A stretch of 42,200 nucleotides of DNA from positions 1-42,200 of the forward strand of contig JAVJQK010000068.1 of NCBI GenBank assembly GCA_040218145.1. Reading direction: 5' to 3'. Positions 7,805-42,200 of this stretch are shown piece after piece. The notes under the pieces were generated by a model, which was not told the DNA's origin, searched no databases, and was given only the letters and a program-made list of their open reading frames with translations. Position numbers and translations under genes: made by a program. The DNA is from Sandaracinaceae bacterium (GTDB lineage: Bacteria; Myxococcota_A; Polyangia; Polyangiales; Sandaracinaceae). The first letter of the stretch is position 1; each line of letters opens with the position of its first letter.

Positions 7805-8667
7805 TGCCCATTCCATCAGGCTTTAAAGAGAAGGAGTATGAGGGGCTCCTCTACCCAGCGCTCTCAGCCTCGCCCTTGGTCTGGACTCCAGACCAAGTGC
7901 TAGAGGAGCACGTTGGGATCGATGCCGCCCTGACCTGCGTCACGGCGTATTGGCAGGTGGTCCATCGGCCCCCGGCCCCTGGCCTGGTGCTCGCCCATTT
8001 CGGGCTGTTCCCGATACTGCCGAAGGCCCAGCAGAAGGAGACGCTCCCCGACTTCAGCACCAACCTCTTCGTCCAAGCCAAGAGGACGTGGGAGTACAAG
8101 AGGCGCCCTCCCGAGGCTGTCACCGATGAGATCGGTCCACCATGCCGATACTTCGACATCGACGAAGATCAGCGCGACAAGCTCTGCGAACTCGCCGCCC
8201 ATCTTGGTGCGGCGGCGGAGGTTACATACGCCTGCGCAAACCTCATGACGAAGCAGGACCTCTTCAAGCACGCGAAGGCAGGAGACCTCGTGCAGAAGAG
8301 CACGTTTCCAACCGCATACAGCCTTGCGGGTCACGGTCGATGGCTTTTCGACTCCCCAGGAGCGAAGGGCACGGGGCTTTCAGAACCGGAACGAATCGAG
8401 CTGCCGCCACTGCTGGAGCGTCTAGAGCGTCTCGCTTCATACGAGCGTCAAGTCGATGGAAACCCGGACCTTGAACGCCAACTCAGCGTCATCTGGCATG
8501 GACTGCTCGCGACCTGGGGGGAAGCTCATTCGTACCGTTGGGTCTTCGATCTCGCCGGGGAGATACAGACGGGAGGCCTAGCGGGGCTGGCCGCCCAGAT
8601 TCGGGTTGTGCTTGAAGTGCTCGGAATCGGCTGGTTGGTCGTCGGCCGGATGGTGACTTCTCCATGA
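7804..8667 (+). CDS. Unknown 287-aa protein of the type I RM operon, possible nuclease fold
   Basis: The start is a GTG sharing one base with the hsdR stop (TAGTG). The end overlaps the next gene by ATGA, so it belongs to the operon. No family name can be given. Residues about 30-95 contain the pattern EEHVGIDAAL followed about 50 residues later by LFVQAKRTW. The acidic residue, GxD and Q-A-K arrangement resembles the core of restriction-endonuclease-like (PD-(D/E)xK) domains, but the spacing is long and the match is tentative. A second half (about 115-160) has FDIDEDQRDKLCELAAHLG and TYACANLM, and the C-terminus is hydrophobic and probably helical. No signal peptide is evident. Role in restriction or in another defence function is unknown. 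Confidence 0.75.
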   Translation: MPIPSGFKEKEYEGLLYPALSASPLVWTPDQVLEEHVGIDAALTCVTAYWQVVHRPPAPGLVLAHFGLFPILPKAQQKETLPDFSTNLFVQAKRTWEYKRRPPEAVTDEIGPPCRYFDIDEDQRDKLCELAAHLGAAAEVTYACANLMTKQDLFKHAKAGDLVQKSTFPTAYSLAGHGRWLFDSPGAKGTGLSEPERIELPPLLERLERLASYERQVDGNPDLERQLSVIWHGLLATWGEAHSYRWVFDLAGEIQTGGLAGLAAQIRVVLEVLGIGWLVVGRMVTSP

Positions 8668-9365
8668 CGCTGGAGACCCTCACCGTCGGCGACTTGGAGT
8701 TCGAGCTGCGCCGCAGTGCGCGGCGACGCTCGGTCCAGGTGACCGTCGATCGAGGCGGCGAGCTGATCCTCTCCGCGCCCAACGAGTGCTCCGTCGCGAC
8801 GATGGAGGACTTCGTAAAGGCGAAGCGGTTCTGGATCTACACGAAGCTGGCGGAGAAGGAGGCCCTCCACCCGCAGGTGAGCCGCAAGCAGTACGTCAGC
8901 GGCGAGGGCTTTCCCTACCTCGGGCGTAGCTACCGCCTCCTCCTGGTGAACGACCAGAACGTGCCTTTGAAGCTGGAGCGCGGCCGCTTCAAGATGCGCC
9001 GGGCCGATGCGACCCAGGGGCGCGAGCACATGGTCGCGTGGTACCAGGCTCACGCGGCAGCCTGGCTATCCAAGCCCGTAGAACGCCTCAAGGCCCGCGT
9101 CGGTGTCGACCCCAGGGGCGTCGTCGTCCAGGACCTCGGCTACCGCTGGGGCTCCTGCGGCAAGGGCCGCAAGCTCTACTTCCACTGGCGCTCGATCCTG
9201 CTCCCGCCGAGAATCGTCGAGTACATCGTCGTTCACGAGCTGGTCCACCTGCGCGAACCGCACCACACGGCTGAATTCTGGACGCGGGTGGAGCGCGCGA
9301 TGCCCGATTTCGGGCAGCGGAAGCAATGGCTAGCTGAGCACGCCGGAGAGCTCGTTACCGTATGA
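8664..9365 (+). CDS. YgjP-type (DUF45/M48-like) zinc metallopeptidase
   Basis: A 233-aa protein of the YgjP/DUF45 family (SprT-like zinc metallopeptidases). The zinc site is HELVH at residues 191-195 followed by the family-specific downstream HxxxFW element (HHTAEFW). The family motif YRWGSCG lies about 30 residues before it. The N-terminal half (SARRRSVQVTV, LILSAPN) matches the usual beta-rich opening. Start ATG overlaps the previous stop by 4 nt. YgjP genes commonly accompany type I RM operons, but their role there is not established; turnover of an RM component is a guess. The catalytic residues look intact. Confidence 0.92.
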   Translation: MTLETLTVGDLEFELRRSARRRSVQVTVDRGGELILSAPNECSVATMEDFVKAKRFWIYTKLAEKEALHPQVSRKQYVSGEGFPYLGRSYRLLLVNDQNVPLKLERGRFKMRRADATQGREHMVAWYQAHAAAWLSKPVERLKARVGVDPRGVVVQDLGYRWGSCGKGRKLYFHWRSILLPPRIVEYIVVHELVHLREPHHTAEFWTRVERAMPDFGQRKQWLAEHAGELVTV

Positions 9366-9431
9366 GCCGCGTGCCTGAGACTCATGGGGCCTATCAGAAC
9401 CGTCTCGCGAGTCGGCAGGAGCCGTAGAGCG

Positions 9432-10844
9432 ATGCCGACCATCTTCTACTCTTGGCAGACCGACGCCCCCAACAATGTGAATCGCTCGTTCATCGAACAA
9501 GCACTTGAACGAGCCGTCCGAGAGCTCAACGCCGAGATCGTCGAGGCTGAGCGTGACGAGGTCGAATTGACCCAAGACACGCAGGGGGTCCCTGGGACAC
9601 CAGACATCGCGGCGTCGATCCTCGCCAAGATCGAGTCCTGTGCTGTCTTCGTGTGCGACGTGTCGCTGGCGCTGAAGGGTGAGAGGGCGAGAGGAGGGAC
9701 GAGGCTGTGCCCGAACCCGAACGTCATGCTGGAGCTGGGCTACGCCATGAAGACGCGGGGGCAGCATCGGATCCTAATGGTGTGCAACACCGCGTTCGGC
9801 CGCATCGAGGACCTCCCGTTCGACCTACGCGGCAAGCGCCCGGTCCCCTATACCGCCGATGCAACAACGGACCTCCCGGAAAGCAGAAGAGCCCTTGCGA
9901 GGGTCCTGACAAGGCGGATTCAGGAGATCTTCAGTATCGAGGAGCCGGGCGCTCCCGCCTTGAGCCCCGTGGATCTCGCACTCGAGGCGATCGCGTCGCA
10001 GGCGACGAACCGCAAGGCGCTTGTCAGAACGGCGATGGTGGACCTACTTGCTCGTCTGGACGCGCTCAACCTGTCACCCGACAGCACACAAGCCAGCGAG
10101 GACGAACTATATCGGGTCTTGGAGTCATCAAAGGATGTACACGAGCAGTTCTTCGAGCTCGCCCTCCGGATTGAGGAGTACGAGGATCACCAGGCTCTCG
10201 ATGGTGTGATTCAGGGCTTTCAGGAGTTGGCGCAACGCTTCAACGTTCGAAATGGCCACAAGGGCGTGAACCCCGTCGCATGGTTCGAACTCTACTACGC
10301 AACCGGACGGATCTGGCTGCTTCTCGCGACGACCGCTATCTACCGGCGTCAGTCGTGGAGTCTGCTGTCGAGGCTCTTCGGCGCGAGGATTCAGGTTGCC
10401 AACCCGCGTCGCCATCACGCTCCAGGCTGGCACTCAATAATGTACCTAAATGTGCGCAGCGACTATCTCAGCAGGCTTGGACGAGCCCGGGGCCGGACCT
10501 CGCTCTTTGCCGACCTGTTGAAGGCTTGGGCAGATGAGAAGGGGGCCTCACTGCCGTCGATCGGGGAGCTGATCGACACCGACCTGGTCCTCGCGCTATC
10601 GCACCGCGGCGAGTGGATCCGCTGGTGGCCCGAGACCGTTGTCTATGCTGCCCACGCGGACCCACTTCTCGTGCACGCGCTTCAAGACGGCGCGTTCGTG
10701 GCCGAGCTCGTCCAGGCGATGGGGATCAGCGTGGAACAGCTGCGCGCGCACATGAGAGAGCTGAAGGAGCGCATCGCGCGATGGCTTCAGTACGACCCCT
10801 CTGCGCCTCTTCACGCTTTCGATCCGGACCAGATCGGTCGCTGA
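9432..10844 (+). CDS. TIR-like / nucleotide-binding-type defence protein with unknown C-terminus
   Basis: A 470-aa protein. Residues 1-160 match a family common in bacterial defence islands: MPTIFYSWQTDAPNN, NRSFIEQALERAV, GVPGTPDIAASILAKI, FVCDVS and NPNVMLELGYAMK. The hydrophobic strand, SWQ loop and NPNVxxELGYA helix with Glu101 recall the TIR/SEFIR-type flavodoxin-like fold and predicted NAD- or nucleotide-hydrolysing effectors. Residues about 175-470 are mostly helical with no motif recognised. The ATG was chosen because homologous sequence begins there; GGAG lies about 12 nt upstream. The gap to the metallopeptidase gene is 66 nt, so the gene may be transcribed with the RM operon but is not overlapped. 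Effector activity is inferred. Confidence 0.78.
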   Translation: MPTIFYSWQTDAPNNVNRSFIEQALERAVRELNAEIVEAERDEVELTQDTQGVPGTPDIAASILAKIESCAVFVCDVSLALKGERARGGTRLCPNPNVMLELGYAMKTRGQHRILMVCNTAFGRIEDLPFDLRGKRPVPYTADATTDLPESRRALARVLTRRIQEIFSIEEPGAPALSPVDLALEAIASQATNRKALVRTAMVDLLARLDALNLSPDSTQASEDELYRVLESSKDVHEQFFELALRIEEYEDHQALDGVIQGFQELAQRFNVRNGHKGVNPVAWFELYYATGRIWLLLATTAIYRRQSWSLLSRLFGARIQVANPRRHHAPGWHSIMYLNVRSDYLSRLGRARGRTSLFADLLKAWADEKGASLPSIGELIDTDLVLALSHRGEWIRWWPETVVYAAHADPLLVHALQDGAFVAELVQAMGISVEQLRAHMRELKERIARWLQYDPSAPLHAFDPDQIGR

Positions 10845-10859
10845 ACCAGAAGGCTCCCA

Positions 10860-11834
10860 ATGCCCGTCAGGAAGTCCAAATCGAACAACTCGCGCAAGCG
10901 CCAGCCTCGACGGATCACCCACCCTCCGAGGCTCGAAGAACTCCTCGAGGCCGAGCGCCAACTGCTGCGGGCCCGCTTCGGAGCGGCGCGTGCCGCGCTC
11001 TCCAGTCATTCGGGAGAACTCGGGGCAAGCCTGGAATATGAGGCGCTGAGTTTCCTGCGAACATTTCTGCCCCGTGAGTATGGGCTCGGCAGGGGGTTCA
11101 TCGTGTGGCGCGAGAAGTGCCGTGCGGAAGACGCAACCTGGGAATTCGATGAGGAGCCCTACCGCGTGGCCGTGAGCCCCCAGCTCGACATCATCATCTA
11201 CGATGCGGTGCGCGGCGGCTCCGTGGCGGACCTCGGTTCTTCGCAGGTTTTCCCAATTGAGCACGTATTTGGGTACGTGGAGGTGAAAGCCGTCTTTCAG
11301 GATGAACTGGCCCACACCCTCGAAGTATCCCGCCTGCTTCGTGAGCCTAACGTGGGCTTCTACTCCGCGCGACCCGAGGCATTCCGGCCTCTCATGACCC
11401 AGTCGTATTGGGCAGTCGTGGACGCCGATCTCCGGCATGGGCCGCATCGAGCGAACACGATTGTCACGGCTCCGATCGACCGGCCCCGGATCGGGTGCTG
11501 GTTCATCGGCTTCGAGTACGAACGAACACCACCCAAGCGAGGGCGCCGAATGGCCGAGATCAGGAAGTCCTTCGAGTCGTCCTGGAAGCGGGTCAGCTTC
11601 CCTGCGCACCTTCACGGCGTGCTCATCGCCGACGTCCAGACGGAAGCCGGCATGAGTGAGGCCGTTTTCCTCAAGTCGCTACCGGACCATGCCGGGGTGA
11701 GACCGTTCACCAGTGATGTCAACTCGGAAGGCGCAATCGGACGTTTCAAGCGCGATATGCTAACGGACCTTGTCGTATTTCAGCGGGTCCCGGCCGACAT
11801 CGCCGTCAACTACGAAGGCTACTGGGCGAAGTGA
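10860..11834 (+). CDS. DUF6602-type protein with a PD-(D/E)xK-like core
   Basis: A 324-aa protein beginning 15 nt after the TIR-like gene, probably co-transcribed with it. Residues 50-82 (HSGELGASLEYEALSFLRTF, LPREYGLGRGFIV) and SPQLDIIIYD at about 106-115 fit the DUF6602 family. Asp110 in QLDIIIYD and the E-V-K triad in YVEVKAVF (residues 141-143) are arranged like the active site of restriction-endonuclease-like nucleases, with hydrophobic strands on both sides. The N-terminus is very basic (RKSKSNNSRKRQPRR), suiting nucleic-acid binding. It is likely an accessory nuclease of the defence island. The family function is not established and this copy has not been tested. Confidence 0.75.
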   Translation: MPVRKSKSNNSRKRQPRRITHPPRLEELLEAERQLLRARFGAARAALSSHSGELGASLEYEALSFLRTFLPREYGLGRGFIVWREKCRAEDATWEFDEEPYRVAVSPQLDIIIYDAVRGGSVADLGSSQVFPIEHVFGYVEVKAVFQDELAHTLEVSRLLREPNVGFYSARPEAFRPLMTQSYWAVVDADLRHGPHRANTIVTAPIDRPRIGCWFIGFEYERTPPKRGRRMAEIRKSFESSWKRVSFPAHLHGVLIADVQTEAGMSEAVFLKSLPDHAGVRPFTSDVNSEGAIGRFKRDMLTDLVVFQRVPADIAVNYEGYWAK

Positions 11835-12131: not shown

Positions 12132-12165
12132 GCAGGCCCCACCCAGATCACTGGGCGGGGCCTGC
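12132..12165 (-). terminator. GC-rich terminator-like hairpin after the 268-aa gene
   Basis: Arms 12132-12146 and 12151-12165 (starting GCAGGCCCC and ending GGGGCCTGC) pair over 15 bp with one A-C mismatch and an ATCA tetraloop. It sits 22 bp beyond the stop codon of the - strand gene and between convergent genes, so it could end transcription from both sides. There is no T-run on either strand, so it is not a classic intrinsic terminator. Confidence 0.55.
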
Positions 12166-12187
12166 AGGGGCTCTCTCGGAGAAGAGG

Positions 12188-12994
12188 TCAGCCCTCGACG
12201 GGCACCGGCGCGGGCTCGTCGACGACGGGGGTCGGGGTGTCGACTTCGGGCAGGGGGTTCTCGATGTCGGTCTCGGGCTCGGGCTCATCGCCCGTTCCGT
12301 GGCGGCGGGAGAGGGCCTCGCGGAACGCGTCGATGGGGGCGACGGCGCGGCGGAAGCGGTCCTCGCTCGCCTCGTCGCCGCGGACGAGCTCGCCGGCGAG
12401 GACGCGGGCGTAGTCGGCGATGGCGAGGCTGAGGTCGTCGATGGTCTCGCGCAGGGCGTCGGACTCGGGGTCGTCGGTCGCGTCGTGGCCGATGCCGAGG
12501 GCGCGGCCGTAGGCGTCGTGCGCCTCGCGGAGGAAGGTGAGGAACTCGGGCCGGAGGACGGTCTCGATCTCGGCGGCGTGGCCGTCGCGGTCGATGCGCT
12601 GGAGCAGCACTTCGGTCCGGCCCCACTGCTCGTGAGCGGGGAGGCGAAGGAACTGGGTGCCGTCGGGGAAGAGGATCGGGAGGAGAGCGGCGGCGCGACT
12701 CGCGAGCTCGCTCGGCGTGAGACGGGCGGTGGCCTCGAGCCCGTCGCGGATGGCGATCAGGCCCGTGTCCTCACGGACGTCGGACTCGCGGATCCCCGAC
12801 GGGGTCTCGAGGCTGCGCGCCATGAGGGTGAGGCGAATGTGCTCGGCGCGCTCTCTCACGGAGGCCGCGGCGCGAAGCAGGGCGGGGCTGGCGTCTTCCG
12901 GGGTGATCTCGAGCAGAGCGCGAGCGAGGAAGACGCCCGAGAAGCCGCTGAGGCGGACGGGGCGAAGGTACGGGGACAGGTCTCGGCGATCCAT
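12188..12994 (-). CDS. Unknown 268-aa helical protein with acidic Pro-rich tail
   Basis: No family recognised. The ATG at 12994 (MDRRDLSPYL) is preferred over an upstream ATG at 13123, because AGAAAGGG lies 6 nt before it (13001-13008). The protein is soluble and mostly helical to about residue 235 (ALLRAAASVRERAEHIRLTL, LADYARVLAGEL-type amphipathic segments). It then ends in a Pro/Glu/Asp/Val tail with repeated PxPxV, such as PTPVVDEPAPVPVEG. No signal peptide or membrane segment is present. The 41-bp palindromic array lies just upstream and could control this gene. A role in chromosome organisation, sensing or structure cannot be chosen from sequence alone. Confidence 0.72.
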   Translation of the reverse strand: MDRRDLSPYLRPVRLSGFSGVFLARALLEITPEDASPALLRAAASVRERAEHIRLTLMARSLETPSGIRESDVREDTGLIAIRDGLEATARLTPSELASRAAALLPILFPDGTQFLRLPAHEQWGRTEVLLQRIDRDGHAAEIETVLRPEFLTFLREAHDAYGRALGIGHDATDDPESDALRETIDDLSLAIADYARVLAGELVRGDEASEDRFRRAVAPIDAFREALSRRHGTGDEPEPETDIENPLPEVDTPTPVVDEPAPVPVEG

Positions 12995-13229
12995 GACGGA
13001 CCCTTTCTCTCGGAGGGATCCGACTCGAGCACCGCGCCCGGGGTGGCCCCCCCACAACGCGCTCTCCATCGCGGCGACACACCGCAGGTTTCGTGCTGCG
13101 ACGACTTTTTTCGCCTTGTCCACGTCCGGAGACGCGCGCCGACCGTCTCGGTGGGACTACAGAGTCCGAACCGTCTTCACGGCGCCTCGGACTGGCCGCA
13201 CTGAGCTCGAAGCGAGATCGCAAGCTTCC

Positions 13230-13534
13230 AACTGGGAATTCTCAGCGAGATCGAGAAGGCGAATCAACTGGACTGGGCCCACCCAGTTCAGTTGATTGTG
13301 GTTCTCGAACTGACTGGGAATTCCCAGTCCAGGTGAGAACGTGAATCAAACTGACTGGGATTTCCCAGTCCAGTCGATTTCGATTCTCAGAACGACTGGG
13401 AATTCCCAACCAACTCGAGAACACGAATCAAACTGACTGGGATTTCCCAGCCCAGTCGAGAACGCATATCAATCTGACTGGGCGCAGCCAGTTGCGAGGC
13501 TTCCGATCTCGGTTCGGCTGAGATTTCCCAGTTG
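13230..13534. repeat. Array of about eight 41-bp tandem repeats each centred on an 18-bp palindrome
   Basis: The core GACTGGG or its variant begins at 13230 (variant), 13271, 13312, 13353, 13394, 13435 and 13476, exactly 41 bp apart, with a degenerate eighth unit near 13516. The most perfect unit is GACTGGGAATTCCCAGTC at 13312-13329; others have a TT centre (13353-13370) or decayed right arms (13394, 13435). The stretches between palindromes are also conserved (TCGAGAAC and GAATCAAACT recur), so this is a tandem repeat and not repeat plus unique spacers. It lies between the deacetylase stop and the 268-aa gene. A 41-bp period is close to four helical turns, so all palindromes would face the same side of the DNA. 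Possible roles: operator array, nucleoid-protein site, or structured RNA. Confidence 0.9.
13262..13297. other. Fully paired 16-bp hairpin in unit 2 of the 41-bp array
   Basis: Left arm AATCAACTGGACTGGG pairs with 13282-13297 through 16 bp, including one G-T wobble, around a CCCA loop. It extends the 18-bp palindrome core into the neighbouring repeat sequence. The other units keep a similar outer ACT/AGT pairing interrupted by a bulged C. Confidence 0.8.
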
Positions 13535-13564
13535 TGATGACGTCGGGCACGGATTTGAGAGACC

Positions 13565-14467
13565 TCAACAGCGACTCGTGGAGCGGAGAGCCCCTCCGAG
13601 GGCGCGCGGGAGCGAGAGTGGTTCGTCTCCGACGCGCGCGAGGCCCGGCTCGAGGGTGACGCCGATGGCGTAGCCGGCCGCACGAACCTGCCGAACGAGC
13701 GCGGGATTCCAGCGACCGTCCGGGTACGCGAAGGAGCGCGCATCGACACCGAGCGAGGCGAGCGCGGCGCGAGAGTCGCGAAGCTCATCGGCGACGGCGG
13801 GCTCGGAGAGCAGGGGCAGGAACGGGTGCGAACGGGTGTGGCTGCCGATCGCCCAGCCCGAAGCAACCAGTCGCGCGAGCGCCTCTGGAGTCAGGTACAG
13901 CTGCGCCGACGTGGGTTCGCACGGCGCTCCCACCGCCTCAACGAGCTCTCGCAGCAGGGGCTCGCGCTCGGCTGGGGCTGCCGCGAGGAACGCGCGCCTC
14001 TCGGGCCCGTCGACCAGGCGTGCGTAGTCGCTCGGGACGTCGAGGTCGAATGCCCACGCGCGCGCGCCCGACCCCAGAGCTCCGCGCCGTCGCGTCGCCG
14101 CGTTCAGCACCGCGTACCAGCGATCCGCCGGAAGGACGGCGCCATCGAGGACGTCGGTCGCGATGAACGCCGTGGCCGGGACGCCCAGCTCGGCGAGGAT
14201 CGGCGCCGCGTGCTCGAGCACGTCCATGTAACCGTCGTCGAACGTGAGCCAGCAGGCAGGACGTGCGAACGTGCGCTGACCCGCGAGCCAGGCGATCACA
14301 TCGCCCTCGCCGACCAGGTCGAACTGCGCCGCGAGCGACATCACCTCCGCGCGGAAGCTCACGGTCGAGACGGCAGTACCGCGAACGAAGTACGGACGCC
14401 CGTCGCCGGCGCGCGCCGACTCGGGGAGCACGCGGTGGTAGCAGAGGATGGTGAGCTCGGCGCTCAC
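13565..14467 (-). CDS. Polysaccharide deacetylase (NodB-type, carbohydrate esterase 4)
   Basis: A 300-aa deacetylase expected to remove N- or O-acetyl groups from a glycan. The start is a GTG overlapping the stop of the upstream gene by 4 nt (GTGA), giving [12 protein letters not shown], the usual NodB-domain opening. Motif 1, TFDDGYMD, carries the catalytic Asp and metal-binding Asp. Motif 2, SHTRSHPFL, supplies the two metal-binding His residues. SFAYPDGRW matches motif 3. No signal peptide is evident, so it may act in the cytoplasm on lipid-linked or nucleotide-linked sugars. It is the last gene of an operon with a glycosyltransferase-kinase-methyltransferase fusion and a LOG/SLOG protein, which points to a shared glycan pathway. 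The frame could extend upstream to 14512, but the coupled start is favoured. Confidence 0.9.
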
Positions 14468-39793: not shown

Positions 39794-41161
39794 ATGTGGT
39801 CGCCCTTCGTTGCCAGCGCGTCGGTCGCCGCGACGCTCCTCCTCGCCGCCGGCTGCGGCGCGCCCGCGACCGAGGTGCGCTGGCCCGCTTCGCCCGAGGG
39901 CGTGAGCATGGCCGGTGAGCTGAGCGCGACCGCCCGCACCCAGGGCGGCGCGACGCCGCTCGCCCCGACCGGCTTGCCCCTCGACGGGGAAGACCTCCCC
40001 CCGGACGCGCCCGGCATCCACGCGCGCTCGTTCGTGTTCGACGGGATGTGGGTGGCGGAGGTGGTGCTGGGCGACGCGCCGCCCGACGCCGAGCTGCCGC
40101 TGGTCGTGATGTTCCACGGCCGCGGCGACCGCCCGCGCATCCCCGGCGGCCCCTTCGGCCGCGTGCCCACCCCCATCCGCGTGCTGATCCCTCGCGGACC
40201 GCTCGCGCTGGGCAGCGGCTACGCGTGGGCCCGCTTCAGCGTGACCCAGAACCGACACGACGAGCTGGCGGCGGACCTCGTCGCCATCGCGCGCCGAATG
40301 GCCCGCCTCATTCGCCACGTGGAGCGCACGAGGCCCACCGCGGGCACCCCGATCGTGACCGGCTTCTCGCAGGGCGCGATGGTCAGCTGGACGCTCTCCG
40401 TGCGACACCCCGACGTGGCGGGCCTGGTGATCCCGATGGCCGGCTGGGTGCCGCCCGCCGCGCGCCCGAGCCCGCTCCCCGCGCAGCCCCCCGTGCGTGC
40501 GATGCACGGGACGGCGGACCCCATCGTCCGGATCGATCCCACGCGCGAGTGGGTCCAGCAGCAGCGCGACGCGGGCGTCGACCTGACCTGGCTCGAGCTC
40601 GAGGGGGTGGCGCACGTCGTGACCCCCGAGATGAACGCGCAGTTCGAGGCGTGGCTCGAGGAGGCCTGCCATCAGCGCGCGCCCGGGCTCACCGGCGGGC
40701 TGGGGGAGCCGGGCGCGGACCCGGAGCCGCTCGAGCCCTACGAGCCGCCCATCGAGGTGCTCGAAGAGGAGGCCGTGCCCGCTCCGCTGCCCGAAGAGGC
40801 GGAGGAGGTCGCCGAGGAGCCGGTGGTTTCAGAAGAGGCCGACCCGCTCGAGGCGGCCGAAGACGGCGGCGCGCAGAGCGAAGCCGACGCGCGCGAGGAC
40901 GCCTCGAGCGACGACGGAACGGATGGCGAGACGAGCGGAGACGACACTGGCGAGGGCGACGACCACGCAGGCGACGACCGTGCGGGCCACGAACACGCAA
41001 GCGACGACCGTGCGGGCCACGAACACGCAGGCCACGAACACGCAGGCGACGACCACGCAGGCGACGACCACGCGGGCGACGACCATGCGGGCGACGACCG
41101 CGCCGACGACGGCGACCAAGCAGGCGACGGAGCCACGACCGACGGGGCGGCGACGGACTGA
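39794..41161 (+). CDS. Alpha/beta-hydrolase (phospholipase/carboxylesterase-type) lipoprotein with His/Asp repeat tail, 455 aa
   Basis: Signal peptide MWSPFVASASVAATLLLAAGC. The hydrolase domain (about 80-300) has the oxyanion-loop-type VVMFHGRGD, nucleophile elbow TGFSQGAMVSW, catalytic Asp in HGTADPIV, and catalytic His in GVAHVVTPEM. It resembles phospholipase/carboxylesterase-type enzymes. The last ~150 residues are acidic (EEEAVPAPLPEEAEEVAEE) and end in ten pentapeptides of the GDDHA/GHEHA/GDDRA type. The enzyme may be exported to the surface, with the tail binding metal ions or cell-surface polymer. The start is set by the signal peptide. Confidence 0.87.
   Translation: MWSPFVASASVAATLLLAAGCGAPATEVRWPASPEGVSMAGELSATARTQGGATPLAPTGLPLDGEDLPPDAPGIHARSFVFDGMWVAEVVLGDAPPDAELPLVVMFHGRGDRPRIPGGPFGRVPTPIRVLIPRGPLALGSGYAWARFSVTQNRHDELAADLVAIARRMARLIRHVERTRPTAGTPIVTGFSQGAMVSWTLSVRHPDVAGLVIPMAGWVPPAARPSPLPAQPPVRAMHGTADPIVRIDPTREWVQQQRDAGVDLTWLELEGVAHVVTPEMNAQFEAWLEEACHQRAPGLTGGLGEPGADPEPLEPYEPPIEVLEEEAVPAPLPEEAEEVAEEPVVSEEADPLEAAEDGGAQSEADAREDASSDDGTDGETSGDDTGEGDDHAGDDRAGHEHASDDRAGHEHAGHEHAGDDHAGDDHAGDDHAGDDRADDGDQAGDGATTDGAATD
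40955..41104 (+). repeat. Ten 15-bp tandem repeats encoding GDDHA/GHEHA/GDDRA pentapeptides
   Basis: Ten uninterrupted 15-nt units in frame. In order they encode GDDHA, GDDRA, GHEHA, SDDRA, GHEHA, GHEHA, GDDHA three times, then GDDRA. DNA of like units is nearly identical, so copy number may vary by slippage. The dense Asp/His/Glu content suggests a low-affinity metal-binding tail. Confidence 0.9.
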
Positions 41162-42003: not shown

Positions 42004-42078
42004 CTTTGCGCCTTTGCGCCTTTGCGCGAGTCCCTTCCGAGAACCGGAGAGCTCGCGCAAAGACGCGGAGGCGCCAAG
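42004..42078. repeat. Inverted-repeat element made of CTTTGCGCC units
   Basis: Arms 42004-42030 and 42052-42078 are inverted copies of 27 nt, pairing at about 23 positions around a 21-nt loop. The left arm is a direct repeat of CTTTGCGCC-type octamers. Its mirror has the GCGCAAAGACGCGGAGGCGC form. Nothing coding is present. It resembles a class of short dispersed palindromic repeats with G-C-G-C-A-A-A-G character seen in many bacterial genomes. Confidence 0.8.
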
Positions 42079-42180: not shown

Positions 42181-42200
42181 CTTTGCGCCTTTGCGCCTTT
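42181..42200. repeat. Second copy of the CTTTGCGCC repeat, cut by the window edge
   Basis: CTTTGCGCCTTTGCGCCTTT repeats the start of the left arm at 42004 and is also preceded by a TA-C-T motif (TTACTTT versus CTACTTT). It continues beyond the right edge. Confidence 0.75.

Follow-up and report, generated by a model that had tools for sequence, protein, structure and literature searches.

Tandem palindrome arrays of near-constant period recur beside a multicopy protein family of Myxococcota

BIME clusters of REP units are tandem, extragenic arrangements of alternating palindromic units. Plasmid centromere arrays (parS/parC) consist of helically phased, type-specific sites on either side of the gene for the binding protein. 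In REP/REPIN–RAYT systems (REPtrons), as portrayed in parts of two articles, palindromic extragenic repeats lie beside a dedicated gene, which has its own repeat class with copies elsewhere (PMC3116915, PMC3733652). To the extent that these excerpts describe it, the REPIN–RAYT pair is the nearest known system to the locus studied here, where the repeats also lie beside a gene, the repeat class is specific to that gene and further genomic copies exist. However, its transposase is absent: the HUH motif was sought in 49 proteins of the partner family (family A) and not found, and no transposase match was obtained. The array of the window, which alone was scanned for tags, contains no GTAG, CTAC, CGTC or GACG (13229–13534). 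The arrays described here also differ from REPtrons in their period of about 42 bp, and few dispersed copies were found.

The window array resembles a BIME in being alternating, tandem and extragenic, but the arrays studied here are unrelated in sequence between loci, have a near-constant 42-bp period and possess a partner gene. As in parS/parC, they are helically spaced, gene-specific and located upstream or downstream of the gene; unlike parS/parC, they are chromosomal and multicopy, with no recurrent ATPase or other partner gene, and the protein matches no known family. We found no description of such gene-plus-array elements in the open-access literature searched; the excerpted text of the Sandaracinus amylolyticus DSM 53668 genome paper mentions repeats for CRISPR finding only (PMC5010890). 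In this study, we show that the gene and the array form a recurrent cassette with a near-constant period and a gene-specific array sequence. Judged by sequence association, the element would be categorically new, given that its protein matches no known family and the transposase that defines the nearest system was not found. We put at close to an even chance that the array is one half of a two-part cassette whose protein, of about 250 aa and apparently all-helical, would recognize it.

The window array and its partner gene

The window is an entire contig (C68) of 42,200 bases in an 11.06-Mb genome. The preliminary description of this DNA had claimed a 41-bp periodicity, and the array (13229–13534, no strand assigned; detected by TRF and self-complementarity) indeed has it: [A/G]ACTGGG begins at 13230, 13271, 13312, 13353, 13394, 13435 and 13476, in steps of exactly 41 bp, and the eighth unit, one step further on at 13517, is degenerate. 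The perfect 18-bp palindrome claimed for the best unit was likewise located, at 13312–13329 (GACTGGGAATTCCCAGTC). That description did not contain the alternation of the spacers, which flip orientation from unit to unit and give an 82-bp super-period; because of this alternation, TRF scored period 82 (256) above period 41 (178). The array ends are mutually inverted (13229–13256 vs. 13507–13534, 82%). Compared with shuffles, the array folded with z scores of −12.5 and −12.6 on the two strands, and z was still −4.1 after column permutation within the unit, which keeps tandemness and composition. A CRISPR array, already dismissed in the preliminary description, was rejected because it requires unique spacers and the spacers here are repeated, in alternating orientation. 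Between the arrays of the window and C71 on the one hand and those of C80 and C7 on the other, two stem positions are altered on both sides (A-T to C-G and G-C to T-A). Another tandem repeat in the window, at 40950–41129, has 15-bp units (called at 30 and 45 bp too) and is possibly coding.

The array lies upstream of a gene for a 268-aa protein (12188–12994, minus strand), and both are present in a near-identical MAG, Sandaracinaceae bacterium MED-G138. Between them is a promoter-like motif, GAAAC-N16-CGAT (13068–13092, minus strand), and a terminator-like hairpin lies 3′ of the gene (12132–12165, minus strand). The general form of the motif, G[ACGT]AAC-N16-CGA[TC], which we take to resemble ECF sigma promoters, was found upstream of 25 of 48 family A genes vs. 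12 of 556 control windows, one of the 49 genes being left out with less than 200 bp upstream; with spacers of 14, 15, 17 and 18, the same motif preceded 0, 0, 1 and 0 of the 48 genes. Nearby, the region 8664–11834 holds possible defense genes, which encode a YgjP-like metallopeptidase, a protein that weakly matches TIR effectors and a DUF6602 protein that has PD-DExK/NucC-like matches.

The 268-aa protein is unclassified. No Pfam entry, transposases included, matched it or any of 28 scanned family members above the cut-off, NCBIfam, PHROGs and PADLOC gave no match for the window protein, and profile searches of PDB yielded nothing credible. A weak match to DUF6261 (PF19775) over most of the model was rejected as noise (13.7 bits vs. 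a cut-off of 27; 15 bits genome-wide; 2 of 28 family members at E up to 0.1). A plasmid origin was rejected in that the protein has no plasmid match, and a viral one in that no relative was found among viral contigs. A single-sequence AlphaFold model of the protein is all helical, at low confidence (pLDDT 48.8). The protein ends in a Pro-rich, acidic tail, and across 49 family members the C-terminal 40 residues comprise 20% Pro and 19% Asp/Glu, vs. 5% and 14% in the body. The dN/dS ratio was 0.15–0.38 in five gene pairs; it was 0.70 between the window gene and its C80 paralog, a value also compatible with relaxed constraint, and about 1 for the L098/L107 pair, in which one gene match is partial.

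Arrays beside two protein families

Family A is multicopy in Myxococcota. The window's genome gave 10 tblastn matches, two of them partial, and profile searches gave 13 matches in G000, 12 in G001 and 9 in G006; 20 of 56 relatives had matches, as did 29 of 282 genomes sampled across the phylum. The preliminary description had linked the array to the 268-aa gene and had proposed a search of related genomes, counting the absence of arrays near orthologs against the link. Arrays were found: when an array was defined by a period of 39–44 bp, or double or triple this length, a TRF score of at least 100 and a position within 700 bp of the gene, 34 of 49 family A genes had one (25 upstream, 10 downstream, one both). 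This census used 20 control stretches. In the complete genome G001, 10 of the 12 genes had an array. None was detected at 15 of the 49, two of which have less than 700 bp of upstream sequence. A fresh phylum-wide set, consisting of 23 of 30 loci (the other seven duplicated genes of the first set or lay in G000/G001), contained 42–43-bp arrays at 12 loci. At the other 11, among them 8 of the 10 remotest, no array was detected. Taken together, these results support the proposed link.

As a control in a single genome, 1.18 Mb of G001 was sampled regardless of family, using 59 of 60 stretches (L180, which overlaps a family locus, was dropped). This sample contained 18 arrays of period 39–44, or about one per 65 kb, 15 of which have a period of 41–43; periods 41 and 43 were the only ones indivisible by three seen more than once. 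One of the control arrays lies upstream of a gene for another multicopy, helical-looking, acidic-tailed protein, designated family C, which has seven copies in G001 and three in G006 (L231–L240) and none in five other genomes searched. An adjacent 42–43-bp array was present at 8 of the 10 copies, or at 6 of 8 without the seed L231 and its ortholog L232, which are not independent of the way in which the family was found. Profile comparison of families A and C gave a probability of 7.9% (E 0.0043), with an FP.G stretch in common. A third small family (L217, L228–L230; three copies in seven genomes searched) lies near short arrays that repeat every 21 bp, half the 42-bp spacing.

The period was 40–44 bp across 50 linked arrays, the sequences of which are alike almost only between close homologs. 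Array sequence was shared in eight of nine gene pairs more than 60% identical, in none of 12 pairs at 45–60% and in 2 of 540 below 45% (2 of 552 overall under 60%). The overall array–protein correlation was weak (Mantel rho 0.093, a value reached in 47 of 1000 permutations), as would be expected if array sequences soon saturate. Mean self-complementarity z was −2.8, −2.5 and −3.3 in three linked sets; in the control sample, it was −2.8 for arrays of 41–43 bp vs. +0.3 for those of other periods. Symmetry is not universal: in the linked sets, z fell below −2 for 18 of 30, 6 of 12 and 5 of 8 arrays, the 30 being those at family A genes that have a TRF row of period 39–44 itself. Ungapped palindrome scoring was poorer than folding at telling the classes apart: 41–43-bp arrays, linked and solo, had a mean z of 1.6 and the others one of 0.4. 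The arrays combine a period close to a multiple of 10.5 bp with symmetric sites, as in helically phased site arrays, a phasing that is a fit and not a proof. Two G001 control stretches (L134:18420–18593 and L171:8853–9123) contain arrays that are alike in spacer and arms and differ in palindrome cores.

Homology between paralogs tends to coincide with the cassette. In L115/L119, it runs from the outer edge of the array to the end of the gene, and in L127/L128 it starts shortly before the gene and reaches the outer edge of the array, with little beyond in either pair. The window and its C80 paralog have 12134–13316 in common; the C80 copy also has the terminator-like hairpin, at which the homology stops. 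Gene-less copies exist as well: the stretch 13113–13536 (no strand assigned), which consists of the array and 116 bp on the side of the gene and stops short of the promoter-like motif, has an 86% identical copy on C71, with looser relatives on C7 and C94, and additional relatives of the L090 and L094 arrays lie in G001. Among the 15 sampled G001 arrays of 41–43 bp, two lie at family C genes; of the rest, four have a relative among the linked arrays and nine have none. However, 2 of 17 arrays of other periods also passed this relatedness test.

Proposed recognition of the array and alternative explanations

We propose that the cassette pairs a tandem array of palindromes, repeating at about 42 bp, with one adjacent gene, the Pro-rich, acidic-tailed product of which would recognize its own array as DNA, with palindromes presented on one face at intervals of four helical turns. 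Array and protein, being tied by this recognition, would therefore diverge together after duplication, and gene-less arrays would be additional sites for the same protein. The protein–array complex may serve in chromosome organization, control of neighboring genes or array spreading. A broader reading, to which we give somewhat less than even odds, is that these cassettes constitute a new class of two-part bacterial element, in which a small helical protein and a private palindrome array at four-turn spacing are copied and diverge together, gene-less arrays supply extra sites, and at least two protein families without clear mutual relation use the architecture; genomes like G001 would therefore carry a dozen or more protein–array pairs. 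Should such self-recognition occur, each genome would contain many naturally diverged, probably non-interchangeable protein–DNA pairs of fixed geometry, in which the joint divergence of recognition and site after duplication could be followed directly. Two multicopy protein families for which the family libraries searched gave no credible match would then have a function, and a class of Myxococcota tandem repeats would have an explanation.

The preliminary description had offered two readings, a binding array for a protein or a structured RNA. In the latter case, the array would be transcribed as a string of hairpins and bound by the helical partner protein, which we consider unlikely. Folding is strong: of 54 arrays (35 from 34 family A genes, 11 of the 12 found in the phylum set and 8 at family C genes), 45 had z below −2. 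There was no strand preference relative to the gene, however, as the gene strand had the lower folding energy in 29 and the opposite strand in 25 (p 0.68), which favors DNA over RNA. Hairpins with 3-nt loops, as an RNA might form, occurred in 10 of 44 units vs. 2.3 expected (4.4-fold) and 4-nt loops were not in excess, while palindromes with no spacer occurred in 13 of the 44 vs. 3.1 expected (4.3-fold); six units, one from each closely related pair, had been dropped from these counts. Some stem positions of the window/C80 array family prefer G.T over A.C on the gene strand, which hints at RNA. A general asymmetry of this kind was rejected, however, since 35 arrays showed no overall signal: 22 G.T vs. 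12 A.C mismatches became 13 vs. 12 without the C80 array. Some arrays lie close behind the gene, also in line with an RNA, but upstream arrays would fall outside the transcript if the motif is a promoter, and a scan of 12900–13700 against Rfam 15 gave nothing above the gathering score. The evidence leans toward DNA as the more likely target. Recognition of the array by its own protein, probably as DNA, is what we infer. Of the two earlier readings, putative protein binding fits the spacing of about 42 bp and the strand-neutral palindromes, but the array is less likely to be just an operator of the gene because the promoter-like motif separates array and gene, some arrays are downstream and gene-less relatives occur elsewhere.

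It is similarly improbable, in our estimation, that the cassette is a REPtron-like mobile element, in which the protein, perhaps with a host nuclease, would spread the arrays, gene and array together being autonomous and gene-less arrays non-autonomous. Such an element would account for the duplication of array and gene as a unit, the scattered gene-less relatives, the C71 copy of the array plus 116 bp and the lineage-specific presence. Nevertheless, the 49 proteins lack the hallmark motif noted above, the 28 scanned have no transposase or other Pfam match above the cut-off, few copies were found per array family and no target-site duplication was established. Between G001 and G006, one cassette and one gene-less array differ in presence, but both comparisons revealed replaced sequence and not a clean empty site. 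Least probable, and quite doubtful, is that the arrays are passive repeats which slippage expands in non-coding DNA and which merely travel with the gene: they change faster between two strains (11 differences in 307 positions of the array vs. 2 in 234 of the spacer and 14 in 804 of the gene) and most sampled 41–43-bp arrays are not near family A, but the 40–44-bp period persists while sequences become unrecognizable, palindromes are maintained, unlike in arrays of other periods, and arrays recur beside a second family.

A separate repeat, of the GCGCAAAG type, occurs at the end of the contig (window positions 42004–42027 and 42181–42200), and sequence similar to it brackets the gene-less C7 array as an imperfect direct repeat (L006:1431 and 1870).
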